From positions 1 to 35,885 of the IMG/VR virus record IMGVR_UViG_3300035034_001388: a stretch of 35,885 bases of DNA, one strand, 5' to 3'. Positions within the stretch are counted from its first letter, which is position 1. Each line of letters opens with the position of its first letter. The notes beneath the pieces were generated by a model, which was not told the origin of the DNA, ran no database searches, and worked only from the letters and a program-made list of their open reading frames with translations. Positions 1-30,922 of the stretch are shown here, piece after piece. The DNA is from a virus. A program made the translations under genes and the position numbers.

Positions 1-157
1 AAGGGTCTGGATAGAGGTAGTTTTCCCCCTCCTCCTTGGGGTCATAGATCCTCCCGCAAGGACACTTCCATTTGCCTTCGGGCTGAATCATCTCGTCGTA
101 AGCGGCTTCCGCTCGTGCCTCACCTCTCTCTATTGGGTCTGGTATGTATGTTGTCAT
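1..157 (-). CDS. Partial CDS, small zinc-knuckle-like phage protein (C-terminus outside window)
   Basis: An open frame reads leftward from ATG at 157 to the window edge, 52 codons without a stop. The N-terminus is acidic and begins MTTYIPDPIERGEARAEAAY. A C-P-C-G knuckle near residues 38-41 (context WKCPCGRIYDP) suggests half of a zinc ribbon; the partner cysteines would lie outside the window. There is no Shine-Dalgarno before the ATG. It is the last visible member of the leftward gene series, 27 nt after the preceding gene. I do not recognise the family and the function is unknown. Confidence 0.6.
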   Translation of the reverse strand, partial: MTTYIPDPIERGEARAEAAYDEMIQPEGKWKCPCGRIYDPKEEGENYLYPDP

Positions 158-184
158 AATTAAGAATCGAACAAAACGTTGCTC

Positions 185-682
185 TCAATCCTCGTTCCTC
201 GGATGAGAGAACTCAGTGTTTTGCCAAAAAGAGGCGATACCGCCGATGATGGCTTCTGAGCTTGGATACCCATTTGGGTCGCAAGTTTTACACCGGTCGC
301 AAAACACTTGGAATCGAAAGTCGGGGTCTTCGCAGTCGTTTTCTCCGTCTATTCTTAGTTGCCCGCCACACTCGCACTTTACCCCCTTGACGCGGCCGTA
401 GAACGCGCCGTTGGGAAGCACAACCGAAACGAGCGGCTCAATGCTTTTCGATTTCTTGGCGGCCTTCCGCTCGCGCTTCCGCTGCGCCGCTTCGATGCGC
501 TCCACATCTTCTTCGGTCTTAGCGCGGGCGGGGTCGTAGCGCTTGGCTCGTGAGGAGCGACGGGCGACCCGATAGAACATATCTGGATCTACGGGAAAAC
601 GCCCAAACGCTTCCATTAGCATCATTGAAACGGCCAGCGGTTTACGGCGGTCGATGGGCTTAAGTTCAGTTTCGTCGTTCAT
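185..682 (-). CDS. Hypothetical protein with C-terminal Cys-rich zinc-ribbon-like segment
   Basis: 165 residues. The middle (about 50-80) is highly charged (RKRERKAAKKSKS) and probably helical. The C-terminal half carries C-E-C-G-G near residue 103 and F-C-D-R-C-K-T-C near 128, a spacing that fits a zinc ribbon. Such ribbons often mediate nucleic-acid or protein contacts, but no specific function can be assigned. The start is the ATG at 682; its leader has no obvious Shine-Dalgarno and it lies 12 nt after the stop of the upstream gene, so translational coupling is likely. Confidence 0.7.
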   Translation of the reverse strand: MNDETELKPIDRRKPLAVSMMLMEAFGRFPVDPDMFYRVARRSSRAKRYDPARAKTEEDVERIEAAQRKRERKAAKKSKSIEPLVSVVLPNGAFYGRVKGVKCECGGQLRIDGENDCEDPDFRFQVFCDRCKTCDPNGYPSSEAIIGGIASFWQNTEFSHPRNED

Positions 683-694
683 TGTGGATTTGGG

Positions 695-1582
695 TTATGC
701 GGTGATGGCACGGTCGCCAAAGCTGCCTTGGAACTTCTTGTGAAGGTTATCGGCCATAAAGGAGACGCGCTTACGGGTGCCCTTGTGGGCGCGGAGGTTC
801 TCGGCATTGAGGTCTAGGGCTGCGAGTGCTTCAGCGCGTAGCTGAATCAGTACAGGGTTGCCCTCAATATTGAGGTCGGGGAGACGTTGCAAATGGTCGC
901 GGAGCTTCGGGATGCAGCCCTTGCGGCCTTCGCTATCCACGATCGGCTTGTCAGGATCTCCAAGCGTATCGGCCACTTCCTTGATCAGATCAAGCGTGCG
1001 GCGAATGGTATCAGCTTCCATGCCGGCGCGCGCGGCTTGAATCTGCACTTCGAGGCGCACGGCCATGTCTTCGCGCTCAGTCTCGGTCAGCTCTTGGATG
1101 AGCCTGAACTGATGCGGGTCAGGCATGGGTTCGATTTGCAACTCGAAAGAGAATAGGCTACGCAGGGCTTCACCGCTCGACGGGTAGTTGGTCGGGTCGA
1201 AGCTCCCGTTGAGTTCACGGCGCTCAATCTCGATCAGGTTGTCCCAGTCCGCGATTAGAGCATCTAGCGCGTCGTAGGCCGCAGACACGCGAACCGCCAC
1301 TTGACGGCGAATGCGGTCGCTCTCGGCCGCTACCATGATGCGGGTCTCACCGATACCCTCGAAAGAGTTCAGCTTGAGGAATCGGCGAATCTTACCCACT
1401 TCCGAGTTGATCGGATCGATCGCACCAGCAAGAATCTTCTTGGTAGTGCGGACACGCTTCGCGTCCATCTGGTGATTGCGCGCTAGTTCGGCTTCCATGG
1501 CCTCGTCTCGAATGTTGAGGCCGATGCCAGTCGCCTTAAAGGAGATTTTCAGTAGTGCTTTGATTTTATTTTCGTTACTCAT
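695..1582 (-). CDS. Helical phage protein, possibly DUF3150-like
   Basis: 295 residues, almost entirely predicted helical and charged. The mid-region pattern (ADWDNLIEIE..., then F-D-P-T-N-Y-P-S, then a P-M-P-D-P-H-Q-F segment) resembles what I recall of DUF3150 proteins, which occur in phages and plasmids and have no firm function. This assignment is from memory and tentative. The start at 1582 is supported by a leader CCAAGGCAAAC directly before ATG, the ribosome-binding pattern shared by neighbouring minus-strand genes. A copy of the AT-rich palindrome sits 29 nt upstream (1610-1630). Confidence 0.72.
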   Translation of the reverse strand: MSNENKIKALLKISFKATGIGLNIRDEAMEAELARNHQMDAKRVRTTKKILAGAIDPINSEVGKIRRFLKLNSFEGIGETRIMVAAESDRIRRQVAVRVSAAYDALDALIADWDNLIEIERRELNGSFDPTNYPSSGEALRSLFSFELQIEPMPDPHQFRLIQELTETEREDMAVRLEVQIQAARAGMEADTIRRTLDLIKEVADTLGDPDKPIVDSEGRKGCIPKLRDHLQRLPDLNIEGNPVLIQLRAEALAALDLNAENLRAHKGTRKRVSFMADNLHKKFQGSFGDRAITA

Positions 1583-1609
1583 TGTTTGCCTTGGTTGAGT
1601 TTGGGTTGA

Positions 1610-1630
1610 GCATCATTAAAATAATGATGC
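1610..1630. repeat. AT-rich palindrome, copy 1
   Basis: Core ATCATTAAAATAATGAT with GC flanks, arms of 9 bp. It lies 28 nt upstream of the minus-strand start at 1582. Confidence 0.88.
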
Positions 1631-1654
1631 GTGGATATAAGGTCAGCCGTCCTT

Positions 1655-1689
1655 GCCTTCGTCGGCTTCGTCGGCTTCGTCGGCTTCAT
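1655..1689. repeat. Short tandem repeat, GTCGGCTTC units
   Basis: About three and a half head-to-tail copies of the 9-mer GTCGGCTTC lie in the 212-nt gene-free gap between the clamp gene and the gene ending at 695. Its role is unclear. Small forward frames through it look non-coding. Confidence 0.6.
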
Positions 1690-1716
1690 GGGCGAAATGG
1701 CGGAAACGAGGTGCGA

Positions 1717-1779
1717 CGACTCGACACTGCCCGCGAAAGGCAAGCGTGCAATGTCGAGCCGCGCACAAAATTCGTGCGG
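1717..1779. other. Two adjacent hairpins downstream of the clamp gene
   Basis: CTCGACA-c-TGC (1720-1730) pairs with GCA-a-TGTCGAG (1748-1758), ten pairs with one internal mismatch. CGCAC (1762-1766) pairs with GTGCG (1774-1778). They lie 16-75 nt beyond the stop of the clamp gene on the minus strand. No T-run follows, so this is not a classical terminator; a processing site or small RNA structure is possible. Confidence 0.4.
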
Positions 1780-1794
1780 TGTAGTTTACTGGCA

Positions 1795-2997
1795 TCAACT
1801 CAGGCGCAGAGGCATCACGACTGCTAGGCGCTGATCCTCACCAGTGGCAACCATCGTCGATAATTCGTCCCTGAATGCCCAGGTCAGGCAACCAGCGGCG
1901 AGTGCTCCTAGTAGGTATGGCGCGTTGAAGGCAATCTCCACGGTCTCGTGCGAAGGCGTCATAATGCCATTGATCGTCACTGAAGAGCGCCCCGTAATCT
2001 CGGAGCCCGCATCAAGGCGCAAGCTCTTGGCATTACCATCAGCGGTAATCTTTACGGCGACGGAACCTTCCTTTCCGCACTTCGGTGCAGACTTGAGGAA
2101 GGCCGATATCTTCTCGGCGTCGGCTTTCCTTAGAAAGCCTATCCAGTTCCCCGGACTTTTAGGAATCACCTGCTTGTAATTCGGAAAGTTCCCTTCTACG
2201 AGAGTGGTAACGATCGTCCACTCGCCATCACCCAAAATGATCTGGGCGGATTTAGCTTCTGCATTTTCGGGATTCGAATCGGACGCCACGTGAGCGAACA
2301 ACTCAACGGAGCAAGGTCGCTCCTGCAGTGCCTTGAGGCTGAAAAGCTTGGCCGTCGCAGCGGGAACAATCACACTGCGCGGTAAAGAGGCAATATCCCC
2401 ACTAGGTATCTTGAGCAGGCGTCGTCCGTCTGTCGCCACAATCGCACCTTCACGGGACAGAAATACACCGTTCAGGATATAGCGGGTCTCATCCGCAGAA
2501 GCGAATTTTACGGCATCACTCAAGTCCTCGGCGAGATTGGAGTGGATTGTGCGGCTACCCAAGGAATCGCCACGGGGGAACGTGTTGTATTCCTCGAGTT
2601 CGCGGCAGATGATTTGACTGCTCCCTCGATCATGGGAGACCGTCAGTATCGGGCGCTCGGCGGGGTATGGACTTACGTCCGGATCCTCGCTAGTAACCGT
2701 GTAAGTCTCGCCCTCAGTGACGAGCGTCACGGTGTCGCCGGGCTTCGCAGATTTAAGAGCTGCCGCGAGTTTCTTGAGCGGCACCAATGCCGCAAAGTCG
2801 CGATCAAAGGTGCCGCGCCAGACGAGCTCGCGGTCAAAGTCATTTGCGTGGATGTTGCCATCCATGAAAACAACGCACTCCATTACGGGCAGTTTGGGGC
2901 TGTTCGGTACGATTTTTCCGAGTACGGCCAAAGCGCGTTGCAGCGTCTTGACGTTCATGTGGATAGTAGAACTCTTTGTCGATAATACGGCATTCAT
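1795..2997 (-). CDS. dnaN: DNA polymerase III beta subunit (sliding clamp)
   Basis: 400 residues, close to the usual ~365-375 of bacterial clamps. Family hallmarks are visible: D-E-T-R-Y-I-L-N-G-V-F-L followed by I-V-A-T-D-G-R-R-L in the middle domain, a late E-G-N-F-P-N-Y motif, and a C-terminal V-M-P-L-R-L, matching the family's conserved M-P-M-R-L end. It should form the ring that tethers a replicative polymerase to DNA. The frame stays open for 27 codons upstream, but the ATG at 2997 is preferred because AAAGGAAACC precedes it and the domain begins after it. A phage-encoded clamp implies replication that is partly independent of the host clamp, or competition for host polymerase. It lies next to radC in the early arm. 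Confidence 0.93.
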   Translation of the reverse strand: MNAVLSTKSSTIHMNVKTLQRALAVLGKIVPNSPKLPVMECVVFMDGNIHANDFDRELVWRGTFDRDFAALVPLKKLAAALKSAKPGDTVTLVTEGETYTVTSEDPDVSPYPAERPILTVSHDRGSSQIICRELEEYNTFPRGDSLGSRTIHSNLAEDLSDAVKFASADETRYILNGVFLSREGAIVATDGRRLLKIPSGDIASLPRSVIVPAATAKLFSLKALQERPCSVELFAHVASDSNPENAEAKSAQIILGDGEWTIVTTLVEGNFPNYKQVIPKSPGNWIGFLRKADAEKISAFLKSAPKCGKEGSVAVKITADGNAKSLRLDAGSEITGRSSVTINGIMTPSHETVEIAFNAPYLLGALAAGCLTWAFRDELSTMVATGEDQRLAVVMPLRLS

Positions 2998-3034
2998 GGT
3001 TTCCTTTGATTTGTGGTTGTTGGTGGAGCCGAGC

Positions 3035-3703
3035 TCAAATGAGCCCCGCCTCGCTAAATGAGTAGTAACCGATTCCAAGCGGGTCTAACTCGCGCTCGCC
3101 CATAATAATGTGATCATCGAGGTCAACGCCGATAATCTTGGAAGCCTCACGGAGTTGTCTCGTTACTTGCATGTCGGCACGGCTCGGCGCAGGGTCGCCG
3201 CTTGGGTGGTTATGCACCGCAATGATCGCGGTAGCGGTATGCAGGATGGCAGCGCGGAATGCTTCGCGGGGATGAACCAAGCAACTGGTCGCAGTGCCAC
3301 TGCTGATCTCGACACGCTTGAGCAGCCGATTTTTACGATCAAGGCAGAGCACCCAGAATTTTTCGACCGTCAGAGGGGCGGTCAATGGGTGCATGTAGCG
3401 GGAGACTGCATCTGGAGTAGTGAAGCATCCACGGTCAAGTGGAGCGCTACGGGCGAACAATGAAAAGCTCGCCATAAGTTTCGACGCGGTGGCTTTACTG
3501 ATACCCGGCACGAAGCAAAGCTCTTCAAGGCTCCACTTCGATATTTTGTTTAGGCTCTCGCCCATGTCGAGCAAGGCAGTCGCGACGGGGAGATTGCCGA
3601 TGATAAGCGCCAGCAATTCGCGGTCGGAGAGTGTTTGTGAGCCGTAGAGCGCCGAACGCTCTTGAACCTCTTGGATAAGATAATTTTTCATAAAAAGTTG
3701 CAC
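3035..3703 (-). CDS. radC: RadC family protein, JAMM/MPN metalloprotease-like fold
   Basis: 222 residues from a GTG at 3703, or 218 from the ATG at 3691; neither has a good Shine-Dalgarno. An N-terminal helix-hairpin-helix-like segment (F-V-P-G-I-S-K, about residues 64-76) precedes the JAB domain. The JAMM signature H-N-H-P-S-G-D-P-A-P-S-R-A-D (His164, His166, Ser174, Asp177) is intact, so metal binding is expected. RadC proteins are common on phages, plasmids and integrative elements. The original repair role is doubtful and the biochemical function is unresolved. Here it lies just upstream of the clamp in the leftward unit, suggesting a DNA-metabolism or anti-defence role. Confidence 0.93.
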   Translation of the reverse strand: MQLFMKNYLIQEVQERSALYGSQTLSDRELLALIIGNLPVATALLDMGESLNKISKWSLEELCFVPGISKATASKLMASFSLFARSAPLDRGCFTTPDAVSRYMHPLTAPLTVEKFWVLCLDRKNRLLKRVEISSGTATSCLVHPREAFRAAILHTATAIIAVHNHPSGDPAPSRADMQVTRQLREASKIIGVDLDDHIIMGERELDPLGIGYYSFSEAGLI

Positions 3704-3788
3704 GGATGAAGAAGAAGCCCGCGAGCGCAGCGGGCATTAGGAAGACCACCCAAGCGACGGCCTCAAAGGGAGTAGGGACGTAGCCCAT
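3525..3788 (-). CDS. Possible small membrane protein overlapping radC
   Basis: The ATG at 3788 shares its bases with the stop of the upstream gene (TAATG), a classic coupling arrangement. The first ~45 residues contain a convincing hydrophobic stretch (V-A-W-V-V-F-L-M-P-A-A-L-A-G-F-F-F-I). The remaining ~50 residues are Arg-rich and lie inside radC in another frame, so the tail may be coincidental, or the true product may be shorter. Function unknown. The evidence is the coupled start plus the transmembrane segment; the overlap with radC lowers confidence. Confidence 0.4.
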   Translation of the reverse strand: MGYVPTPFEAVAWVVFLMPAALAGFFFIRATFYEKLSYPRGSRAFGALRLTNTLRPRIAGAYHRQSPRRDCLARHGREPKQNIEVEP

Positions 3789-4168
3789 TAGGCGACGGCC
3801 TCCGAGTGTTTGTAGGTGACGGCGCACGGGCTCACGACATAATCGTCGAGGGTGTTGTCGGTAGAGAACCCATTGTTAAGCCAGTAGCCGCCCTCCATCC
3901 ATCGCTCGGATGAGAGCCACGGAAGCTTCAACACTTCGTTTTGGATTCGCTTGTCGGCCTCGACGCAGAGACGGAAGAGCCACTGCGTGGTCTTAGTGTT
4001 TACGTGCGGATAGTCTTCGATGCGGGCGATCTTTTCCAGATCGGGGAAGACCATCGTAAGCAGCCCGGCCATGTAGTCGCGCGGGTTGCTCACTTCAGAG
4101 AAAAGCTTCTCTACCTTTTTCGGGTCGAGCAGCACGTTGTCGTGTATGATTGAGTATTTGTTGCTCAT
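3788..4168 (-). CDS. Hypothetical early protein
   Basis: 126 residues with no motif I recognise. It is soluble-looking, with a mixed charged N-terminal half and a Trp/Tyr-rich stretch (W-M-E-G-G-Y-W-L-N-N) around residues 90-100. The start at 4168 is preceded by GGGGGAGGACGC, a strong Shine-Dalgarno unlike the AAGGCAAA leaders of its neighbours. It lies two nt from the upstream small gene and overlaps the next start by TAATG, so it is clearly within an operon. Role unknown. Confidence 0.7.
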   Translation of the reverse strand: MSNKYSIIHDNVLLDPKKVEKLFSEVSNPRDYMAGLLTMVFPDLEKIARIEDYPHVNTKTTQWLFRLCVEADKRIQNEVLKLPWLSSERWMEGGYWLNNGFSTDNTLDDYVVSPCAVTYKHSEAVA

Positions 4169-4170
4169 GG

Positions 4171-4359
4171 CTAAGCGTCCTCCCCCGACATTTCGTTTTC
4201 AATATCCACTTCGACTGCGCCCATCTTGACGTATTGAACTTCCGCCACATCGTCGGGGTTGATACTGTCTTCGACTTCAGCAACGCTCCAGAAGTTGAGC
4301 GGAAAAAAGGTCACGCCACCGGCGACCCAGATTACTTTTAAATATGGTAGAACATTCAT
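4171..4359 (-). CDS. Small acidic hypothetical protein
   Basis: 62 residues. A hydrophobic N-terminal half (L-K-V-I-W-V-A-G-G-V-T-F-F-P-L) is followed by a very acidic tail. It could be weakly membrane-associated, but the hydrophobic part is short and broken by Pro. The ATG at 4359 has the shared leader GAAAGGCAAATC, which supports real translation. A palindrome copy lies 35 nt upstream (4395-4411), and beyond it the folded RNA-like segment. No family recognised. Confidence 0.65.
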   Translation of the reverse strand: MNVLPYLKVIWVAGGVTFFPLNFWSVAEVEDSINPDDVAEVQYVKMGAVEVDIENEMSGEDA

Positions 4360-4394
4360 GATTTGCCTTTCGTTGGTTTTGCTTAGTGCGCCCC

Positions 4395-4411
4395 ATCATT
4401 AAAATAATGAT
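4395..4411. repeat. AT-rich palindrome, copy 2 (core only)
   Basis: Exact core ATCATTAAAATAATGAT with 7-bp arms. The flanking bases (C at 4394, A at 4412) do not pair, making this the shortest-armed copy. It lies about 35 nt before the start codon of the 62-residue gene read leftward. Confidence 0.85.
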
Positions 4412-4430
4412 AGAAGCATGAGCGTGAGAT

Positions 4431-4702
4431 ATACGCACAGAGAGGCGGCGAGTCTCAAGGAGGGCTATTATCCTCCGGCCATTTCGCCCATTGCCTGTGC
4501 GTGAAAGTGAGTGAGTAGCGAAGTTGTGCTGAAAGGAAGCTAGGCCACGGCATTCACCTGACTACCACATGGCAGCAGGTTCCACGGGATTCTTCCGGAC
4601 TCAGACTACAGAGCTTCGCTACTCGGTTGATGGTTAATGAGCAGACAGACTGGCTTCTCGCGAAGCGTCCTCCGTTGCGGCTCCTGCCGTACGACGGGAG
4701 CT
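4431..4702. ncRNA. Candidate structured RNA in 355-nt gene-free gap
   Basis: No credible reading frame fills the interval 4360-4715, yet it is dense in long perfect stems. An 8-bp stem pairs 4433-4440 with 4495-4502 and encloses GGCG/CGCC (4444-4447 with 4485-4488) and the hairpin GGAGG/CCTCC (4459-4463 with 4472-4476). An 11-bp perfect stem, GAGTAGCGAAG (4513-4523) with CTTCGCTACTC (4614-4624), closes a 90-nt subdomain. A GCTTC-tcgc-GAAGC hairpin lies at 4653-4666, and a GCTCC...GGAGC hairpin with inner CCGT/ACGG at 4680-4701. Neighbouring genes are on the minus strand, but stems are strand-symmetric so the strand is undecided. It does not match tRNA, tmRNA, RNase P or the group I core as I know them. 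Function unknown. Confidence 0.6.
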
Positions 4703-4715
4703 AGAAATAGGTGGC

Positions 4716-4898
4716 CTATGTAGCCTTGATGTAGGCATTGAAACCTACGGTCACGGGCTTGCCATCGACTAAGACCTGAGTGGTAATGTTGCCACCGCTG
4801 GACGCAACGATGCGCGTTTTCCCAGACTTGCTGAGTTGCGGGATTTCAGTGACATCAGCCTCGATAATGATCTTTTTACCTTTAATAGATACATTCAT
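4716..4898 (-). CDS. Small basic hypothetical protein
   Basis: 60 residues, probably all beta, with alternating hydrophobic strands and a L-S-K-S-G-K-T-R-I-V-A-S-S-G-G-N core and a D-G-K-P-V-T-V-G-F-N-A-Y-I ending. I recall similar short proteins in phages but know no function. The start at 4898 is fixed by the leader ACGAAAGGCAAATT immediately before ATG; the frame is open further upstream but without a leader. A palindrome copy (4926-4948) lies 28 nt upstream. The stop is followed within 15 nt by the folded 4431-4702 segment. Confidence 0.75.
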   Translation of the reverse strand: MNVSIKGKKIIIEADVTEIPQLSKSGKTRIVASSGGNITTQVLVDGKPVTVGFNAYIKAT

Positions 4899-4925
4899 AA
4901 TTTGCCTTTCGTTTTGTTTATGTGA

Positions 4926-4948
4926 GCTATCATTAGAATAATGATAGC
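4926..4948. repeat. AT-rich palindrome, copy 3
   Basis: Core ATCATTAGAATAATGAT, one centre base different from the consensus (AAA becomes GAA). The arms extend to 10 bp with GCT...AGC flanks. It lies 28 nt upstream of the minus-strand start at 4898. Confidence 0.85.
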
Positions 4949-5041
4949 AGGGTTTGAGCGATCGTTTGGGGCACCCGCGACAGCGGATACCGAGGACAAG
5001 TCGCAGCGGCTCAGAAATGCAACGGCTCTCCAATTGAATAC

Positions 5042-5073
5042 AAAAAAAGCCCGCACCGGTGAAGGTGCGGGCT
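5042..5073 (-). terminator. Rho-independent terminator, minus strand
   Basis: A 10-bp perfect stem, AGCCCGCACC (5048-5057) with GGTGCGGGCT (5064-5073), has a 6-nt loop. Read leftward it runs into seven T (A5042-5048 on the plus strand). It begins 19 nt after the stop of the 291-residue gene, which it should terminate. The small gene starting at 4898 therefore needs its own promoter, presumably near the palindrome at 4926. Confidence 0.9.
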
Positions 5074-5091
5074 GGTTGAATCTTGCTCGGC

Positions 5092-5967
5092 TTAGAAGTT
5101 TACACTTTCGAGCTGAGCTTCGCTAGTCGCGACCACTTCGAGTGTAGACTTGATCGCCGTGAGGTACTGGTCGACTAGGGCAAGGGCCTCATTCGCGTGA
5201 CCGGGCTGCTCCATCGCGATTTCGGTCGCGAGTGCCTCAAGCTTGTTGAGGGAATTGCGAAGCATGGGGAGTTTCGGCATTGGAACTGGAGCAGTGTCCG
5301 GCTTTGTGGCCTTTGCTTTCGTTTCGGGTTCGACTTCCGTTTCCGCTTCCGCCTCGACCGCGACCTCCGCTTCGGCTTCCGCTTCGGCTTCCGCTTCGGC
5401 CTCCGCTTCGGCCTCGACCGCGACTTCCGCTTCGGCTTCGGCTTCGGGTTCAGCCTCAGCGTTCAGCTTCTCAGCTTCCGCTTTAACTTTCGCGGCATGG
5501 ATCTTTGCATCGGTCTCAGCCTTAGCTTTGGCTTCTGATACGAGGAAATCGCTGTGCGCTTGGGTTGTCATTCCCGTATCGGCGAGCGACTTCCACTCTT
5601 CGGGCTCGCCTAGGTAGGCTTCCGCCATGGTCGCGTTTTTCGCCGTGAGCTTGTTCAACGACACGGCGAGACCGTAATTGATGGAATTATCAAACTCCAC
5701 CTCAGTCATTTTTCCGGTCGCGACGTAGGTCTCGTAGACCATCGCTATTTGACGGCCGTTGGCGATTTGAGACTTGGAAAGTCCTGCTTTTTCAAGCAAG
5801 CCATAAACAGTCTCTTTTCCGCGCAAAACGGAAGCCAGGGCTACACACGCCTTGCCGGCGACAACATAGGCCTTGCGGCCAGTCTCAAATGCCGTAACGG
5901 CAGTCGAGACGATTTCTTTGCGGGTTCCGGAGCTAAGCTCTTCTACGGATATTAGTTTATTCGACAT
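5092..5967 (-). CDS. Hypothetical protein with Glu-Ala repeat linker
   Basis: 291 residues in three parts. The N-terminal helical domain (1-150) holds a helix-turn-helix-like stretch (L-L-E-K-A-G-L-S-K-S-Q-I-A-N-G-R-Q). A low-complexity Ala/Glu linker follows (roughly 165-225, repeated AEAEAE with two V-A-V-E insertions). A C-terminal helical domain ends the protein. The linker is encoded by degenerate GCTTCCGCTTCGG-type DNA repeats, so its length may drift by recombination. The start at 5967 has leader ACAAAGGAAAATT. A strong terminator follows the stop. It could be a DNA-binding or structural organiser protein; function unknown. Confidence 0.75.
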   Translation of the reverse strand: MSNKLISVEELSSGTRKEIVSTAVTAFETGRKAYVVAGKACVALASVLRGKETVYGLLEKAGLSKSQIANGRQIAMVYETYVATGKMTEVEFDNSINYGLAVSLNKLTAKNATMAEAYLGEPEEWKSLADTGMTTQAHSDFLVSEAKAKAETDAKIHAAKVKAEAEKLNAEAEPEAEAEAEVAVEAEAEAEAEAEAEAEAEVAVEAEAETEVEPETKAKATKPDTAPVPMPKLPMLRNSLNKLEALATEIAMEQPGHANEALALVDQYLTAIKSTLEVVATSEAQLESVNF

Positions 5968-5997
5968 AATTTTCCTTTGTCTTGTTATTTTGAATGA

Positions 5998-6012
5998 TTC
6001 AAACCGTTTGAA
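5998..6012. promoter_or_regulatory. Perfect 15-bp palindrome, possible operator
   Basis: TTCAAAC-C-GTTTGAA, 7-bp arms around one base, lies 31 nt before the minus-strand start at 5967. It sits between that start and the first copy of the ATAAG/CTTAT repeat. Position and symmetry suggest an operator controlling the 291-residue gene. No protein partner is known. Confidence 0.4.
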
Positions 6013-6023
6013 CCATTGCTCAG

Positions 6024-6052
6024 TATAAGGGTAAAGCTTGTGACTTATTCAG
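6024..6052. repeat. ATAAG-n14-CTTAT repeat, copy a
   Basis: TATAAGGGTAAAGCTTG followed by TGACTTATTCAG. The half-sites ATAAG and CTTAT are separated by 14 nt centred on AAGCTT. It lies 57 nt upstream of the minus-strand start at 5967. It is identical over 29 nt to the copies at 6176 and 6275. Confidence 0.9.
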
Positions 6053-6065
6053 TCAGTGGCTTGCC

Positions 6066-6098
6066 TTGAATCTATCATTATTTTAATGATAGATTCAA
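6066..6098. repeat. AT-rich palindrome, copy 4 (longest arms)
   Basis: The core ATCATTATTTTAATGAT (consensus on the opposite strand) is extended to perfect 15-bp arms, TTGAATCTATCATTA with TAATGATAGATTCAA, around TTT. It lies 99 nt upstream of the start at 5967, in the 328-nt gene-free stretch 5968-6295 that also holds three ATAAG/CTTAT repeats and a terminator. Confidence 0.9.
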
Positions 6099-6175
6099 AA
6101 AACCTTGGCGGCCTAGCTCGCATCGGAGCTGGCGCTTGCCAGTGGGCTATCAAGTGCTTTCACTTCATTGCCCAA

Positions 6176-6204
6176 TATAAGGGTAAAGCTTGTGACTTAT
6201 TCAG
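6176..6204. repeat. ATAAG-n14-CTTAT repeat, copy b
   Basis: Identical over 29 nt to copy a, in the same orientation, 152 nt further right. No gene begins next to it; it lies in the gene-free 5968-6295 stretch. Confidence 0.9.
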
Positions 6205-6240
6205 AAACTGCCTTCCCTTGCGCGCTAAGAAAGCGTGCAT

Positions 6241-6272
6241 AAAAGAGCCCGCATTCATAAGAATGCGGGCTC
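6241..6272 (-). terminator. Rho-independent terminator, minus strand
   Basis: A 12-bp perfect stem, GAGCCCGCATTC (6245-6256) with GAATGCGGGCTC (6261-6272), has loop ATAA. Read leftward it runs into TTTT (A6241-6244). It lies 24 nt after the stop of the 299-residue gene and should end that transcript. It shares its GC-rich AGCCCGC stem style with the terminator at 5042-5073. Confidence 0.85.
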
Positions 6273-6274
6273 GA

Positions 6275-6303
6275 TATAAGGGTAAAGCTTGTGACTTATT
6301 CAG
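6275..6303. repeat. ATAAG-n14-CTTAT repeat, copy c (overlaps gene end)
   Basis: Same 29 nt as copies a and b. Its right end supplies the stop codon and the last residues (V-S-E) of the 299-residue gene at 6296-7195. The repeat therefore sits between that gene's end and its terminator. Confidence 0.9.
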
Positions 6304-13433: not shown

Positions 13434-15175
13434 GCGATTTACAAAAGAAATTAGATCAGCTCGCGCCGACCCGCTTTGAACGCGGCTTGGTCAAGATTGC
13501 TCCCAAGGCTGCGGTCACTCGCATGCAAGCCCGGCACCAGATGCTCGAGTTTCAGTGGCGTGCCGCCAGTCCGGGCAAACGACGCGCTCCATCAGGAGGG
13601 CGATCAAGGAACGCCACCACCCAAAGCCCTGCGAGCCAGCGCGATCGCGTAAAGCTTATTTGGGATGCGCGTAAGTCTTACCGCGATGTGCCTGTCGTTG
13701 CTTGCGCCACCAACCGTCTCGCTGAGTATGTGATCCCCCAGATCATGTATCAAGCCAACACGGGCGACGATGAACTCGATACCATCTACGAGGCCTACTG
13801 GAAAAACTGGTCAACAAATGAGGCCGATATGCGTCAAATGACTGACCTAGCAGGCTTGTGCAAGGTGGCTTTTATCCAAATGCTCGTGGATGGAGATTTC
13901 TCCTTTCACCCTATCCACACAGAAAGAAGCTATTCCCTCCAGTGTATTGAGGCTGACCGCATCGGGCACCCCGACCTTGCTGGTGGCGACGTGGATCCGA
14001 ATAAGGTATCGGGAGTCTTCATGGATGATTCAGGTAAGCCGCTCGGCTACGAAATCTTTAACCGCGATAAGCACGGAAACTACAAAGCCGTTCCTGATGG
14101 CGTAATCCCCGCCGAACAAATTTTAATGCTGATGAGCATGGAGAGCTCCGACCAGGTTCGTGGCATCTCATTTTTCTGTCGAGTCCTTGATCAGATCAAC
14201 GATCTTTACGAGTCTTTTGAAATGGAGCGCGGCGCGGCCAAGTGGGCGGCCAGCTACGCAGGTGTCGTGTTCGAGAAGGACAGTCGTAGCGGTCGAGGCA
14301 CAGGTGCGGCCGAATTCGATGGGGTGACCGCCGAGGGCACCCCTACTCAGTCCGTCGTGCCAAATAAGTTACTGCGCCTGACCACCGGTGAAGATGTATC
14401 GGCCTTCCCGCCCTCCAACCGCCCCTCCGGGGCATTTATCGCTCTAATCGACGCCACTCTTCGCGACATAGCAATGGGTCTTGATCTGCCTTTTGGCTTC
14501 TTTGACATGCGGGGCTTCGGTGGCGCAAATTCTCGACTCGAGGCGCATCAAATTCAGCGGAAAATTACCGCTTGGCAGAACGTGATTAAACGATCGGTAT
14601 TAAACCCACTGCGGGATATGGTCTTCCGGAAGGCAGTCTTGATGGGTGACTTACCGCCAGCGCCTGACGCTAGTGGTGGCTCATGGACATTCGGCGCACA
14701 CATCACCGCCGACCTAGGCTACCAAACTAATGCCGACCTAGCGATGCTCAATGCTGGGCTCACCACCGCAAGCAAGCTCGTCGCCGCACAAGGGCTCGAC
14801 TTTGATCAGGTCTTGCGCGGACGCATCTCCGAGATCAAGAAAACTCACGCGGAGGCAATCTTCCAAGGAGTTCCGATTGAACTCATCAACCCAAGCTTGA
14901 GCAACGCAACTAGCATGTTCGCCGACCTCCTAGCCGCGCAGAAGCCTGCCCCGAAAATCAAGCCTACGATTCAAGACGCAGGTGATAAAGTGGCCAAGCA
15001 GATACTAGAGGTGATTAACAACGTGGCCGAGGGAGTCTTGCCACGCGACGAAGCGATCGAGTTACTGTGCTACACCTACCAAATGCCTCGCGGTAAAGCT
15101 GAATCCATTGTGCCAAATCAAGGCGACGCCGAGGTGCCCGCCGGCCCCATCAACCAACCCACACAACAACCATGA
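13430..15175 (+). CDS. Portal protein, lambda (gpB) family
   Basis: 581 residues. The lambda-type portal pattern is visible: an N-terminal A-R-K-S-Y-R-D-V-P-V-V-A-C-A-T-N segment, Y-S-L-Q-C-I-E-A-D-R-I near residue 165, V-R-G-I-S-F-F near 240, and R-D-I-A-M-G-L-D-L-P-F-G-F near 345, followed by a helical A-H-Q-I-Q-R-K-I-T-A-W stretch. It forms the dodecameric vertex through which DNA enters and the neck attaches. It lies between the gpW-like gene (4-nt overlap) and the next small gene (ATGA overlap), as expected for the head operon. Confidence 0.9.
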   Translation: MSDLQKKLDQLAPTRFERGLVKIAPKAAVTRMQARHQMLEFQWRAASPGKRRAPSGGRSRNATTQSPASQRDRVKLIWDARKSYRDVPVVACATNRLAEYVIPQIMYQANTGDDELDTIYEAYWKNWSTNEADMRQMTDLAGLCKVAFIQMLVDGDFSFHPIHTERSYSLQCIEADRIGHPDLAGGDVDPNKVSGVFMDDSGKPLGYEIFNRDKHGNYKAVPDGVIPAEQILMLMSMESSDQVRGISFFCRVLDQINDLYESFEMERGAAKWAASYAGVVFEKDSRSGRGTGAAEFDGVTAEGTPTQSVVPNKLLRLTTGEDVSAFPPSNRPSGAFIALIDATLRDIAMGLDLPFGFFDMRGFGGANSRLEAHQIQRKITAWQNVIKRSVLNPLRDMVFRKAVLMGDLPPAPDASGGSWTFGAHITADLGYQTNADLAMLNAGLTTASKLVAAQGLDFDQVLRGRISEIKKTHAEAIFQGVPIELINPSLSNATSMFADLLAAQKPAPKIKPTIQDAGDKVAKQILEVINNVAEGVLPRDEAIELLCYTYQMPRGKAESIVPNQGDAEVPAGPINQPTQQP

Positions 15176-15552
15176 ATGAATCCATCCTAGTTTACGGAGA
15201 TGCTAAACCTAAATCGATTGAATTGCCTGAGGGGTTCGAGCTGGCCGGGACGGTTGTGACCGCTCCCAACCGACTCGCCCTTGTTGCGGTCAACTCCGAG
15301 GGAGTGATCGCGCACTACTACGTCCAGAAGGGCGGAATCAAGTGGACACTCGGGCCCATTGCAAAGGAACCTTATGAGCCAAAAACGATCAAAGAAACCG
15401 TCACCCGAAGCGAGCCAACCATTGTATGCGGACAGTCTGATCAAGGATCAGATACGAGAAGCACTCGAAGCCGGAAATCTAGAGCGCGCCGCGGAGCTGA
15501 TGGACAAGCTGAGAAATCCGCCGATAACGCCGCCACTGGTAGCGAGGATTAA
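15172..15552 (+). CDS. Small protein after portal, with low-complexity tail
   Basis: 126 residues starting in the ATGA overlap with the portal stop. The first ~75 residues form a plausible beta domain (V-T-A-P-N-R-L-A-L-V-A-V-N-S-E-G-V-I-A-H). The last ~50 are Ser/Arg/Ala-rich without hydrophobic core, exactly where the next gene (15374) overlaps in another frame. So either the tail is a disordered extension or a frame change joins the two. Function unknown; probably a virion accessory protein. Confidence 0.6.
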   Translation: MNESILVYGDAKPKSIELPEGFELAGTVVTAPNRLALVAVNSEGVIAHYYVQKGGIKWTLGPIAKEPYEPKTIKETVTRSEPTIVCGQSDQGSDTRSTRSRKSRARRGADGQAEKSADNAATGSED

Positions 15553-15637
15553 CCTCCTGCTCTCTTTCACCTTCCTCGTCGCGTTGGCGTGGTTTGCAAT
15601 TCCGCTGACTGCAACCGCGTGGGCTTGGTGGTATTGA
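15374..15637 (+). CDS. Small membrane-anchored protein overlapping the previous gene
   Basis: 87 residues from the ATG at 15374 (an upstream in-frame TTG exists at 15359). A basic N-terminus leads to an amphipathic helix (L-I-K-D-Q-I-R-E-A-L-E-A-G-N-L-E-R-A-A-E) and a clear C-terminal transmembrane segment (I-N-L-L-L-S-F-T-F-L-V-A-L-A-W-F-A-I-P-L). The frame differs by one from the overlapping gene, and this frame has the better protein character over the 179-nt overlap. Could be holin-like or an assembly membrane factor; unassigned. Confidence 0.6.
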   Translation: MSQKRSKKPSPEASQPLYADSLIKDQIREALEAGNLERAAELMDKLRNPPITPPLVARINLLLSFTFLVALAWFAIPLTATAWAWWY

Positions 15638-15643
15638 TTGACC

Positions 15644-17953
15644 ATGAACCACACCGACCTAAATCCATCTGAGGCGAAGAAACGTGCAGGCAACTACCGT
15701 AAGCGTAAACTGAGATGGAACGGGTTGCCTATCTCGATCGAGAACCCCGCAGGCGGGGCACGATCCGGCACAGACAAGTCCGGCAAGAAATGGTCGTCGG
15801 TAATGCCGTACGACTATGGCTATATCCGCGGTACGACTGGACGCGACGGCGACCACATTGATGTATTCATGGGGCCTCACACTCGAAGCGAGCTTATCGT
15901 CATTATTAACCAAGTCGAACCGAAGACCCGCAAGTTCGACGAGCATAAATGTATGCTCGGGTTCTTTACGAAGGACGAAGCGATTCGCGCCTACCATGCG
16001 GCCTATGCGCCAGGGTGGAAAGGCATGGGATCCGCCACTACGATGGGTCTTAATCAATTCAAGAAATGGGTGCGCTCTGGGCGCAAGATGGCACCGGTGA
16101 AGTTTGACGTTCGCAATCTCCCCATGGAAGGTCGTATCACTAATTTCAGCTCAACTCTCAAGCAAGAAGAGCGCAAGCAGCGCAACGTGCAAACCGCCGT
16201 CAACACCGTAGGGGTCGTTGGCAGTCTAGGGCTGGGGCTTTACTCCTACCGCACTGCATTGAAGGCAGGCAAGGTGGTAGATTCTGTGCAGGACAATATA
16301 GATTCGATTTCCAGAAACGCTAAAAGCACTGCACATAGCGCCGCGAGAACTGCCAGACGCGCCGATAAAGCATCACAGAGAGTTGTTGTGAATTCGCACC
16401 TTATAGGGAAGCGACTGCGCGCTTCAGCCAACCCGAAGAACTGGACAACCGGCAAGCTTGCAAATCGGCTTATCAAGGGCGCGACTCGTGGGCGAAGGAA
16501 GCTCTTCAGTGCTCGCATGGGCGTCACTGAATTTCAAGGTCGGGGGCGCCCTTACCGGGACACGCCAGATAATTTAATGGGATTCCCTAGAGATCAATCG
16601 AAAGCCAAAGGCTACCACCAGCAAAAATATAGCAAGTCAATTGATGTTAGCGTCCGCCATACAGGCATGAAAAATAGTGGATACAGCGATAGCATAAAAG
16701 GGCTGAATACTCCCCATGCACTAGAACGCGCTCACCGGAATTGGCCTGATAGTGCTGTCCGGAAAACTCCAAAACTCTCAATTCGCCTCCGTAAATCTCG
16801 CTTACTTCGCCATTTAGAATCAATTGATAGTGTCACCAACTTTCGCGCTCGTGGTGAATGGGATGGCAAGACCGGTATCAATCCTGAGACCAATAAATTT
16901 GAAGATAACCGCAGCTTCTTGCGCAAGGCTGCGCCGTTTGCAGTCGGCGCAGGTCTCACCATAGCGGGTGGACTGGCGATGCGCCACCGGGTTCGCCCTA
17001 AAGTGCCATTTCAAAAAGGTATCCATTGGGCGGCCGGCACTAGCCTCGAACCAACTGCGCGGAAGGCTGCGCGGGTAGCAGAGAATGCGGCGCGCGGTAG
17101 CGTAATCCGTGAAGGCAAGGCTACAGCAAGAACGGCATCAAGAGAAGCCGCGAAGTTAGCTAAGAAGAAGGTAGTCAAGAAGAGCACTCGCAGGAGAAAT
17201 ATTCCTCCCTTGACTGGCGGCGTTCGCGGCACAAGCCGTAGTATGACTGCAAATCGCACCGGAGTCATTGAGCTCAATCTTCCGAATGCAGATCACAATA
17301 ATCAGTATTCTGGCACCTTGAGTTATCCGGGGATGATGCGTAAGGCACAGAGTACTCGCAAGTGGGCAGGCCGTGCAGGCGGGGCAGCGCAAGACGTTGA
17401 CGACATGGTAAGCGGCCGTGCGCGAAACCCCAAGAAAAAGCGCTTCTACGAAAAAAGTTGGTTCAAGAACGCGCTTGGAGCTGCGGCCATTGCAGCGCCC
17501 ATGTATGCGTCCCGTGTCGCAGCCTCACAAGGTTATCAGTCGAAGTTGCTTAAAAAGTACGGGGGTAAAATTGGCTCGGCCATTAACCGCCAGCACGGGA
17601 GGAATATGCCAGTGTTTACGGCTCAGTTAAGCCGCACCCTAGAGCTTTCTTACTTAGACTCTGACGAGACTCGCGGGGCAGGATGGGATGTTCGTGATGC
17701 ACGAGGTAAGAGCGCTCGCGTTTTTACGCCTGGCTCGCTCCCGCGAAATCGTCGCGAGAAGAAACCACATGAGCGGGTTGGCAGTATCCGGACTCAGCGC
17801 AATGTCGCGATCGGGGTCGGGATACTTGGTATCGGACTTGGAAGCTATGGCCTCGCCAGCCGCAGAAGCGCAATTCGAGGCATCATGCGTAAAGCCAACA
17901 AGACTCCGATTACGCCTATGGCGAAAGTAATAAAATTCCCAAAACGCGCCTAA
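15644..17953 (+). CDS. Large virion-type protein with N-terminal phage InPase-like domain
   Basis: 769 residues from the ATG at 15644. Residues 1-150 match the inorganic-pyrophosphatase-like domain described in phage and plasmid polyvalent proteins: D-Y-G-Y-I (57-61), G-R-D-G-D-H-I-D-V-F-M-G-P (66-78), F-D-E-H-K-C-M-L-G-F (98-107). The rest is very basic with several glycine-rich hydrophobic segments (near residues 184-201, 427-443, 605-625 and 717-737) separated by long Ala/Arg/Lys helices. Polyvalent proteins are thought to be delivered into the host with the DNA, so an ejected virion protein fits, but that is inference. It precedes three small basic proteins sharing a motif with it. Confidence 0.7.
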   Translation: MNHTDLNPSEAKKRAGNYRKRKLRWNGLPISIENPAGGARSGTDKSGKKWSSVMPYDYGYIRGTTGRDGDHIDVFMGPHTRSELIVIINQVEPKTRKFDEHKCMLGFFTKDEAIRAYHAAYAPGWKGMGSATTMGLNQFKKWVRSGRKMAPVKFDVRNLPMEGRITNFSSTLKQEERKQRNVQTAVNTVGVVGSLGLGLYSYRTALKAGKVVDSVQDNIDSISRNAKSTAHSAARTARRADKASQRVVVNSHLIGKRLRASANPKNWTTGKLANRLIKGATRGRRKLFSARMGVTEFQGRGRPYRDTPDNLMGFPRDQSKAKGYHQQKYSKSIDVSVRHTGMKNSGYSDSIKGLNTPHALERAHRNWPDSAVRKTPKLSIRLRKSRLLRHLESIDSVTNFRARGEWDGKTGINPETNKFEDNRSFLRKAAPFAVGAGLTIAGGLAMRHRVRPKVPFQKGIHWAAGTSLEPTARKAARVAENAARGSVIREGKATARTASREAAKLAKKKVVKKSTRRRNIPPLTGGVRGTSRSMTANRTGVIELNLPNADHNNQYSGTLSYPGMMRKAQSTRKWAGRAGGAAQDVDDMVSGRARNPKKKRFYEKSWFKNALGAAAIAAPMYASRVAASQGYQSKLLKKYGGKIGSAINRQHGRNMPVFTAQLSRTLELSYLDSDETRGAGWDVRDARGKSARVFTPGSLPRNRREKKPHERVGSIRTQRNVAIGVGILGIGLGSYGLASRRSAIRGIMRKANKTPITPMAKVIKFPKRA

Positions 17954-17961
17954 CCTTTCTT

Positions 17962-17982
17962 CTATCATTAAAATAATGATAG
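17962..17982. repeat. AT-rich palindrome, copy 7
   Basis: CTATCATTA-AAA-TAATGATAG, arms of 9 bp. It is the only copy found inside the late operon, in the 64-nt gap before the gene at 18018 and 35 nt upstream of its ATG. TTTGACATTC follows it. Confidence 0.88.
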
Positions 17983-18017: not shown

Positions 18018-18557
18018 ATGGACACACAAACAATTCTCTTTCGCCTACGCGGCCGCAAAATCGCTGAACTGAACGCTAAACTGAAAACGACCGACTTCGC
18101 GTATCGCGATGAATACGGGCGCTACAGACAAGAGGAAAGCGGTGGCCCGGGTATCGGTGGCGTGGCCGCAGTCGGTGCCGTGGGGGGTGGACTTTATGCG
18201 CGTGGCCGCATGAGTGGCGCGATCGGCCCCTCTGGTGTCGAAAGGAGGATTTCAGGCCTCCGCGAACGCATGGCCAACAGCAGAGAAGGGGTCACGGGCA
18301 GACAAACCGGCACGGTCAATGGTGGGATGAGTCGCGCGGCTGGTGTTCGCGAGCAAGCTAGCCGAGTAGGCCGCGAAGCCCGAACCGCTTATCGCGGAGC
18401 TAAAACTGGCGTTTCCGGAGTCTTCCAGGGCACTGACCGCGTTACAGGCCCTGATGCTAGTTTGGTCAAGAAAGTTCGCCGCGCTGGCCGAATCTCTCGT
18501 GGCGGACTTCGCTCTTTCCTTACTCGCACGAGCAAGGCGCTGGCTCGTGGCGCTTAG
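18018..18557 (+). CDS. Small basic Gly/Arg-rich virion-like protein
   Basis: 179 residues. The N-terminus carries I-L-F-R-L-R-G-R-K-I-A-E-L-N-A-K-L then F-A-Y-R-D-E-Y-G-R-Y, a motif echoed in the two next genes. It is followed by a glycine-zipper-like hydrophobic segment (G-I-G-G-V-A-A-V-G-A-V-G-G-G-L) and a long Arg/Gly/Ser-rich basic region. It could be an internal or membrane-interacting virion component. A palindrome copy lies 35 nt before its start, so it may begin a separate transcript. Confidence 0.65.
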   Translation: MDTQTILFRLRGRKIAELNAKLKTTDFAYRDEYGRYRQEESGGPGIGGVAAVGAVGGGLYARGRMSGAIGPSGVERRISGLRERMANSREGVTGRQTGTVNGGMSRAAGVREQASRVGREARTAYRGAKTGVSGVFQGTDRVTGPDASLVKKVRRAGRISRGGLRSFLTRTSKALARGA

Positions 18558-29935: not shown

Positions 29936-30675
29936 TGGCAATCTGGCTACCCAACAATAAAGACGATTCCGACGCGCCGACTTGCTACGTGCCTGGCCTA
30001 CCTTATGTCTCGCAGGCCGATGGTGTGCAAGACAACCCCAACGGGTTTTTCCAAAAAGAATCTATCGGCAACGCGGGTAACGCCGTGCAGAAGTATATGC
30101 ATTACTGCACGCGAATGTTGAGGTGGAATGACATCAACCTTGATCCCTTCACGGTGAGCGGCACGCCAACGATCAATAAGACTAAGCGGTTCGGCGATCT
30201 TGGCAGCTACCATGTAAGCGACGCCTACGGCATTCGGACGAGCGGTGGATCAGTCGATCTAGATAGCGCGTTTACTCGATACAGATTCCCATCCGAAGAA
30301 GTCCCTTACCACCTATATGATTATAGAGGCGTAAGCGTGGGCACGGGCTTCCCTTTTACGGGGAAGACCTGCGGGTGGTTGCCTGCCGCAGAGGATTCAG
30401 GGTTCTTCTGGGTGCCGACTACGACCGACCTCAGCAATATTGAAACGGGGCTAGAGGCATTTCTCGTTAGCAAAAGCACTAGCCTTTCCGCGCTCGCCGC
30501 CCTCCCGCAAGTGTGGAACCTCTGCATCATCGCATGGATGTGGGCAGGGTATGATGGTGGAGCAACTGAGTTCCACGACGGAGAGGACAGGCCATCGCAA
30601 GGACTTTCAGGACGGCTGACAGAATTACGAGCTGTCAAGGACTGCGACGTTTACTATCTACCCTATCTCTACTAA
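29935..30675 (+). CDS. Intron-split tail-region protein, 5' exon (unspliced ORF)
   Basis: The ATG at 29935 overlaps the stop of the preceding gene (TAATG). The continuous frame is 246 codons and ends at TAA 30673-30675. That stop lies at the predicted 5' splice junction: exon 1 would end with T30673, and splicing to 30923 gives codon T-CG and 31 more residues (total about 278). The product is Trp/Tyr/Gly-rich (W-M-W-A-G-Y-D-G-G), with no recognised domain. It is encoded between two tail fibre-like genes, so a tail tip or fibre role is inferred. Without splicing a shorter protein lacking the last 32 residues would be made. Confidence 0.72.
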   Translation: MAIWLPNNKDDSDAPTCYVPGLPYVSQADGVQDNPNGFFQKESIGNAGNAVQKYMHYCTRMLRWNDINLDPFTVSGTPTINKTKRFGDLGSYHVSDAYGIRTSGGSVDLDSAFTRYRFPSEEVPYHLYDYRGVSVGTGFPFTGKTCGWLPAAEDSGFFWVPTTTDLSNIETGLEAFLVSKSTSLSALAALPQVWNLCIIAWMWAGYDGGATEFHDGEDRPSQGLSGRLTELRAVKDCDVYYLPYLY

Positions 30676-30922
30676 TGATTTTTCAACCACATCGACATCG
30701 ACATCGGGCATTATGGGGTGAACTCAGGGAAACTCCCACGCGGACAATCCTGAGCCAAGCTTTCGCAGGAATGCGATTGAAGGTGCAACGACTAGGTAGC
30801 GAGGCCAGAACGGCCAGTAATCTACCCACGAGCGCCCCACGGCCTAGCCGCCGAAGAGATAGTCTGAACTGCATGGCAACATGCAGAAGCGCGGGATAAA
30901 CAGCCCACGCGATAACACAATG
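30674..30922 (+). ncRNA. Group I self-splicing intron (subgroup IA-like, td-like), no ORF
   Basis: The complete catalytic core can be drawn. P3 is TGGGGTG (30714-30720) with CGCCCCA (30833-30839). AA joins it to P4, CTCAGG (30723-30728) with CCTGAG (30749-30754), and the 3' strand continues into the typical AATCCTGAGCCAAG. P6 hairpin TCGCA-GGAA-TGCGA spans 30763-30776. P7 is GACTA (30790-30794) with TAGTC (30860-30864). P7.1/P7.2-like GGTAG/CTACC spans 30795-30826 and P8 CGGC-cta-GCCG spans 30840-30850. P9.1 is CTGCATG-GCAA-CATGCAG (30869-30886). P9.2 joins 30889-30895 to 30904-30910. The end ACACAATG gives omega-G at 30922. The P7'/P9.1 part closely resembles the T4 td intron as I remember it. 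The 5' end is less certain because I could not place a clean P1 guide. Confidence 0.9.

Follow-up and report, generated by a model that had tools for sequence, protein, structure and literature searches.

Dispersed palindromes of an uncultivated phage as probable DNA sites of a phage-encoded, self-regulating protein

Introduction

The viral record IMGVR_UViG_3300035034_001388, whose whole stretch of 35,885 nt was analysed and is referred to here as the window, carries a palindrome that is repeated between genes, often a short distance before a start codon, and that is flanked by bases differing from copy to copy. This arrangement raises the question of whether the palindromes are read as double-stranded DNA by a protein, as hairpins in the 5′ leaders of transcripts, or as both, and, if a protein reads them, which protein that is. 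An initial sequence-only reading had favored control at the RNA level or at both levels. Here we argue that the palindromes are probably (at a rough probability of 0.6) dispersed double-stranded DNA sites of a self-regulating helical DNA-binding protein encoded by the phage, most likely the 291-amino acid product of gene 5092-5967, hereafter the 5967 protein.

Results

A palindrome family in the window and in closely related records

The core ATCATTANNNTAATGAT, in which the half-sites ATCATTA and TAATGAT are separated by a 3-bp spacer, is present in seven exact copies in the window (Table 1), a number that is reached in none of 100 shuffles, with only 0.84 copies expected even when up to three mismatches are allowed. 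The seven-copy family proposed in the sequence-only reading is thereby borne out at the same seven sites, with the qualification that the starts it listed include the flanks, and all seven copies in the window are intergenic, as it had claimed. Five copies do lie close before start codons, at distances of 29 to 37 nt that span a slightly wider range than the approximately 25 to 35 nt first given, and the idea that a control element precedes genes throughout the phage is likewise supported.

Table 1. Palindromes and associated features of the window, and palindrome families of related phages.
Feature	Position	Strand	Description
Palindrome copy 1	1610-1630		Core 1612-1628; flanks GC/GC; 29 nt upstream of minus-strand gene starting at 1582
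Palindrome copy 2	4395-4411		Core only; 35 nt upstream of minus-strand gene starting at 4359
Palindrome copy 3	4926-4948		Core 4929-4945; 30 nt upstream of minus-strand gene starting at 4898
Palindrome copy 4	6066-6098		Core 6074-6090; 15-bp arms; core edge 106 nt upstream of the 5967 gene
Palindrome copy 5	7942-7962		Core 7944-7960; 94 nt upstream of minus-strand gene starting at 7849; 70 bp from copy 6
Palindrome copy 6	8010-8034		Core 8014-8030; 29 nt upstream of small terminase gene (8060)
Palindrome copy 7	17962-17982		Core 17964-17980; 37 nt upstream of gene at 18018
Second repeated element	6025-6052		ATAAGGGTAAAGCTTGTGACTTATTCAG; between palindrome copy 4 and the 5967 gene
Candidate site-binding protein gene	5092-5967	-	291 aa; homologs in all 8 phages with a palindrome family
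Intrinsic-terminator-like hairpin	6245-6272	-	Downstream of gene 7195-6296
Intrinsic-terminator-like hairpin	5048-5073	-	After gene 5967-5092
G004 family			CCTTACGCGTAAGG
G013 family			TCATTACGTAATGA
G048 and G049 family			AGTCTTAnnnTAAGACT
G050 family			ACCGTTACGTAACGGT
L140 and L109 family			CCCTTrCGyAAGGG-like sites

The same phage is represented at 99.8% identity by a longer record, IMGVR_UViG_3300012147_000014 (G001, 63,928 bp), which extends the window on both sides and adds three palindromes, one exact and two that differ from the core at its outermost base alone, to give a total of 10 at no more than one mismatch. The ATCATTA/TAATGAT core is the commonest repeated palindrome of this record, and because G001 carries an integrase gene, the phage is probably temperate. 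In the near relative G002, whose terminase is 79% identical to that of the window phage, the fragment covers two of the sites (those of the small terminase and of the counterpart of gene 18018), and both are kept at the same places with intact half-sites and a changed spacer.

Other features lie near the palindromes or elsewhere in the window. The second repeated element, ATAAGGGTAAAGCTTGTGACTTATTCAG, is a 28-bp direct repeat found at 6025, 6177, 6276, and 7903, three times exactly and once with three mismatches; two of its copies sit between a palindrome and its gene, and a compact form, ATAAGTGACTTAT, is found near 7319. From palindrome copy 2 to the end of gene 4716-4898 there is a stretch of about 300 nt (4412-4715) without a recognizable gene, and at 1795-2997 and 3035-3703 on the minus strand a phage-encoded DNA polymerase sliding clamp (beta subunit) adjoins a RadC-like protein. 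A group I intron match at 30624-30886 on the plus strand, which scores 59.4 bits and so exceeds the Rfam gathering score, is located between a tail-region gene and small ORFs, and a putative tail protein contains a tandem leucine-rich (BspA-like) repeat at 32650-33035, the copy number of which is not the same in G001, although that record is otherwise 99.8% identical to the window.

Differently spelled palindrome families in more distant phages

Related phages have dispersed palindrome families of their own, TCATTACGTAATGA, AGTCTTAnnnTAAGACT, ACCGTTACGTAACGGT, CCTTACGCGTAAGG, and ACCCTTGCGCAAGGGT, with spacers of 2, 3, or 4 bp depending on the phage, and between these phages the spelling and the spacer vary while the layout is constant. 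The families were recognized through repeated 6-bp arms, a procedure that can miss degenerate families, and none of 56 block-shuffled loci contained one. With orthologs identified from tblastn matches and ORF length rather than from curated gene calls, G013 has TCATTACGTAATGA 29 nt upstream of its ortholog of g4898 and a palindrome at the place equivalent to that of window copy 7, G004 has a differently spelled palindrome 34 nt upstream of its g1582 ortholog, and the dnaN orthologs of both phages are also preceded by differently spelled palindromes. In G048 and G049 most palindromes are inside ORFs, as defined by a simple ORF caller, and at corresponding places in both phages. Four of these in-ORF pairs were compared (L150 and L151 of G048, L154 and L155 of G049); three read SYxKT in frame in proteins that are otherwise unrelated, and the fourth, in dnaN, uses another frame.

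The stretch fetched for L108 has a small three-copy family, ATAAGTACTTAT, but encodes no 5967-protein homolog. TATCATTAnnnTAATGATA also occurs in other viral contigs, mostly as single copies that are probably due to chance. Two scans of genome contigs with terminase and portal profiles, made as a host and prophage search, found no relative, and among annotated phages the terminase relatives are distant only. Apart from its palindrome family, G004 contains at 7635-9326 of L073 a protein sequence that is ParB-like as judged by eye. A tie between the palindrome and the 60-amino acid g4898 gene was rejected, with a repeated palindrome preceding g4898 in only 2 of 44 homolog-bearing loci.

The 5967 protein as candidate binder

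Searched with a profile of the 5967-protein N-terminus, each of the eight phages in which a palindrome family is present proved to encode a homolog, and in seven of them a family palindrome lies approximately 22 to 100 nt upstream of the homolog gene, the sole exception being G013, in which family and homolog are both present and no site precedes the homolog gene. Dispersed operators are expected to occur as many near-identical copies, above chance and at regulatory places, with one of them before the gene of the regulator itself; the palindromes have the first of these properties, and, by sequence position, the 5967 family has the second in the seven phages. Among control genes a family site stands in front of dnaN in two to three of eight phages (depending on the start codons estimated and on the G013 site), of g4898 in two of eight, and of terL, capsid, and prohead genes in none of five, four, and five, respectively. 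The chance product computed for the placement before 5967 homologs is 2 × 10−9, a value that is rough and post hoc.

In a first-pass scoring of 44 loci, which had originally been fetched for g4898, the homolog was present in 7 of 8 loci with a palindrome family and in 3 of 36 without (Fisher P = 2 × 10−5), a post hoc test on the same supporting data from which the binder hypotheses were formed. One of the three apparently family-less loci, L109, proved on closer inspection to carry a family, so that the first-pass table understates the association. Homologs or distant homologs of the 5967 protein are also found in phages with no recognized family (G009, G010, G014, L132, and L133).

The 5967 protein has a helical N-terminal region with a helix-turn-helix-like arrangement, an Ala/Glu-rich middle, and C-terminal helices, and its structure is predicted with confidence for the helical N-terminal part only (pLDDT approximately 83-92). 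Among 96 chains compared, the DNA-binding domains of Noc and ParB gave weak fold matches to the model, with Z values of 4.4 to 5.0 that are within the range given by unrelated helical proteins, and no significant sequence similarity to ParB was found. Searches for DNA-binding families in Pfam and PHROGs gave no informative match, Foldseek gave no significant match in the PDB, and among viral models it gave nothing beyond one uncharacterized phage protein (E = 0.004). Because the structure matches are weak and Pfam and PHROGs uninformative, we infer the identity of the binder from position and co-occurrence.

Within the window, copy 4 would be the autoregulatory site of the 5967 gene. Terminator-like hairpins predicted from the sequence separate copies 3 and 4 from upstream transcription (Table 1): the hairpin at 6245-6272 suggests that the 5967 gene is transcribed from a new start located between the two, in the stretch containing copy 4, and the one at 5048-5073 suggests that gene 4898 has a promoter of its own within the gap where copy 3 is found. 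No σ70-like promoter was recognized in these two short gaps.

The palindromes could instead be operators of a lambda-type lysogeny repressor, a small helix-turn-helix protein encoded near the integrase and outside the window, in the manner of the phiC31 inverted repeats. G001 does encode, in addition to its integrase, a 110-amino acid protein with a helix-turn-helix arrangement, whose low-confidence model has mostly helix-turn-helix regulators among its weak Foldseek matches, and a degenerate core with two mismatches spans the start codon of its gene. However, this site is degenerate and came to notice only in retrospect, phmmer found no relative of the 110-amino acid protein in the family-bearing phages G013 and G004 (G048 to G050 being left out of this search), none was found elsewhere in the viral contigs, and the site association of the 5967 family is much stronger. 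We regard a lysogeny repressor as an unlikely reader of the sites.

Flank symmetry and the RNA hairpin

In the order of the window copies, the flanks form 2, 0, 3, 8, 2, 4, and 2 Watson-Crick pairs beyond the core, which agrees with the earlier claim of complementary flanks in six of seven copies; the flanks of the remaining copy, at 4395, pair only as U·G in the sense transcript. When right flanks were shuffled among the 10 sites of the longer copy, the total run length had P = 0.0006, and P = 0.018 without the two longest-armed copies. Counted on the sense strand over the 12 sites of the window phage and G002, the bases at flank position 1 pair in 11 (nine Watson-Crick and two G·U) and those at position 2 in 10. 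At the non-autoregulatory sites of relatives, by contrast, at least one flank pair is present in 6 of 24 and at least two in 1 of 24, where chance gives approximately 25% and 6.5%. Before the 5967 homolog the extra pairs number 8 in G001, 11 in G049 (total arm length 18 bp), 2 and 4 in G050, 2 in G004, 2 in L140, and 1 in G048. The loss of symmetry in relatives, one half of the condition first named as refuting an RNA element, is thus seen at their non-autoregulatory sites, whereas at most of the putative autoregulatory sites pairing is kept, with differing sequences. Flank symmetry is therefore real in the window phage, is not general, and recurs at the presumed autoregulatory site, and the complementary flanks go beyond what a plain protein site explains. 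Short-range template switching in replication can lengthen palindrome arms, and possible sources of the long arms are arm growth of this kind, a stronger operator, or a hairpin with a role of its own.

A hairpin in the 5′ leader, which would act on translation or mRNA stability or as a protein-RNA switch, either alone or alongside a DNA site, would account for the pairing at flank position 1, for a core mismatch in one copy that is a G·U pair in the sense strand, for predicted folding energies of −7 to −17 kcal/mol in most copies, and for the recurrence of long, differently spelled arms at the presumed autoregulatory site of several phages. Yet the arms may owe their length to template switching, flank symmetry falls to chance level at the other sites of relatives, the 3-nt loop varies in the sense strand (UUU, UUC, AAA, AAU, and AUU), one copy is only 2 nt from a start codon, and the near-invariant stem sequence exceeds what a hairpin needs. 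An RNA hairpin role is not needed to account for the palindromes, because the 2-nt-spacer palindromes before orthologous genes in G013 fold weakly as RNA (−2.4 to −4.6 kcal/mol) and some relatives carry copies inside ORFs. Of the RNA or dual control first proposed, the control element is thus supported and the RNA part is not, and we consider a leader hairpin quite doubtful; Rfam gave no RNA family at the palindromes.

An unlikely variant would join the two levels in a dual DNA/hairpin autoregulatory switch, in which an unnamed 5967 DNA-binding family has sites that drift in spelling and spacer and lie both at promoters and in ORFs, and the sites before its own gene, as long perfect palindromes, could double as an RNA or DNA hairpin.

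It is very unlikely that the palindrome serves as a promoter element specific to the phage and recognized by an alternative sigma factor or an activator. Its center always reads TAnnnT, the most conserved −10 positions, which would make the first base of the flank, a purine in 10 of 12 copies, the +1 position, the palindrome is followed by A- and C-rich leaders of 29 to 37 nt, and no similarity was seen by eye upstream of the copies; but there is no −35 element at the proper spacing, TAnnnT is not kept in families whose spacer is 2 or 4 bp or whose center differs, and relatives have copies in ORFs. Promoter-like matches in 1-9000 number 6 against 5.4 expected, just one of them (1595-1622) overlaps a palindrome and it does not share the strand of the gene, and no σ70-like promoter was found at the palindromes. 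Two further candidates were rejected: terminators, as no T-run follows the palindromes, and Fur boxes, the half-sites of which we take to run in the inverse order.

Discussion

The reading that we favor, in which the palindromes are DNA sites of the 5967 protein, leads to a simple model. The protein would bind as a sequence-specific dimer to the two symmetric half-sites, at or beside the promoters of replication and early genes and of the terminase and structural operon, where it would repress, rather than activate, or coordinate the genes behind the bound sites, and the copy at 6074 would let it repress the gene that encodes it. The 5967-family protein and its half-site may have diverged together among related phages. 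If so, the locus offers a protein and a site that can be tested as a pair, for a family of phage regulators that has no name in Pfam or PHROGs, with at least six natural site spellings and matching protein sequences from which the co-evolution of DNA specificity and spacer preference could be read, and it would be useful for the annotation of control networks in uncultivated phages of unknown hosts.

Several known systems provide comparisons. The Streptomyces phage phiC31 has conserved inverted repeats (CIRs) of approximately 17 bp at many intergenic places, which are bound by the phage repressor. The window palindromes are similar in length, symmetry, and intergenic dispersal, but their sequence differs and their binder is probably not a lysogeny repressor. 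The stoperators of Cluster A mycobacteriophages are many genome-wide sites of a phage-encoded repressor, with a motif that diverges together with the repressor (PMC6550527), and they resemble our family in being spread over a temperate phage genome and, as we read the relatives, in the apparent co-divergence of site and protein. Stoperators, however, lack symmetry and mostly point the same way with respect to transcription (PMC6550527), whereas the window palindromes are perfect dyads located between genes. The ESAS elements of Cluster K phages are dispersed inverted repeats before the start codons of a subset of genes, have a phage-group-specific consensus, and were proposed to be operators or promoters (PMC3203893, PMC11373665). 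Placement upstream of some start codons and phage-group-specific spelling are shared with the family described here, but ESAS consists of two 17-bp repeats with a variable spacer and is tied to a 13-bp SAS and SigA-like hexamers (PMC3203893, PMC11373665), whereas here there is a single 7-3-7 dyad with no SigA-like −35/−10 hexamers within it, and the 13-bp SAS GGGATAGGAGCCC gave three two-mismatch matches, none of them at the palindromes. On the grounds of site symmetry, SAS, and promoter hexamers, the window palindromes are not members of the stoperator or ESAS/SAS families.

Plasmids provide two further comparators. KfrA of the RA3 and RK2 plasmids is a helical, self-repressing protein whose N-terminal helix-turn-helix is combined with a long helical tail (PMC7783346), a description that recalls the helical 5967 protein with its helix-turn-helix-like N-terminus and proposed self-repression; in this case the differences are that RA3 KfrA binds a single locus of direct repeats (PMC7783346), whereas the window has many palindromes, and that no sequence match was found. 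Finally, the KorB operators (OB) of plasmid RK2 are dispersed palindromic DNA sites of a ParB-family silencing protein, some of which act at a distance (PMC11790492). Their sequence is unrelated to that of the window palindromes (similarity is at chance level), and the phage protein is only a weak fold match to ParB, but the arrangement of dispersed palindromic sites and a DNA-binding protein that would be encoded by the same replicon is alike. By analogy with these systems, the window palindromes appear to work like the dispersed operators of replicon-encoded regulators.
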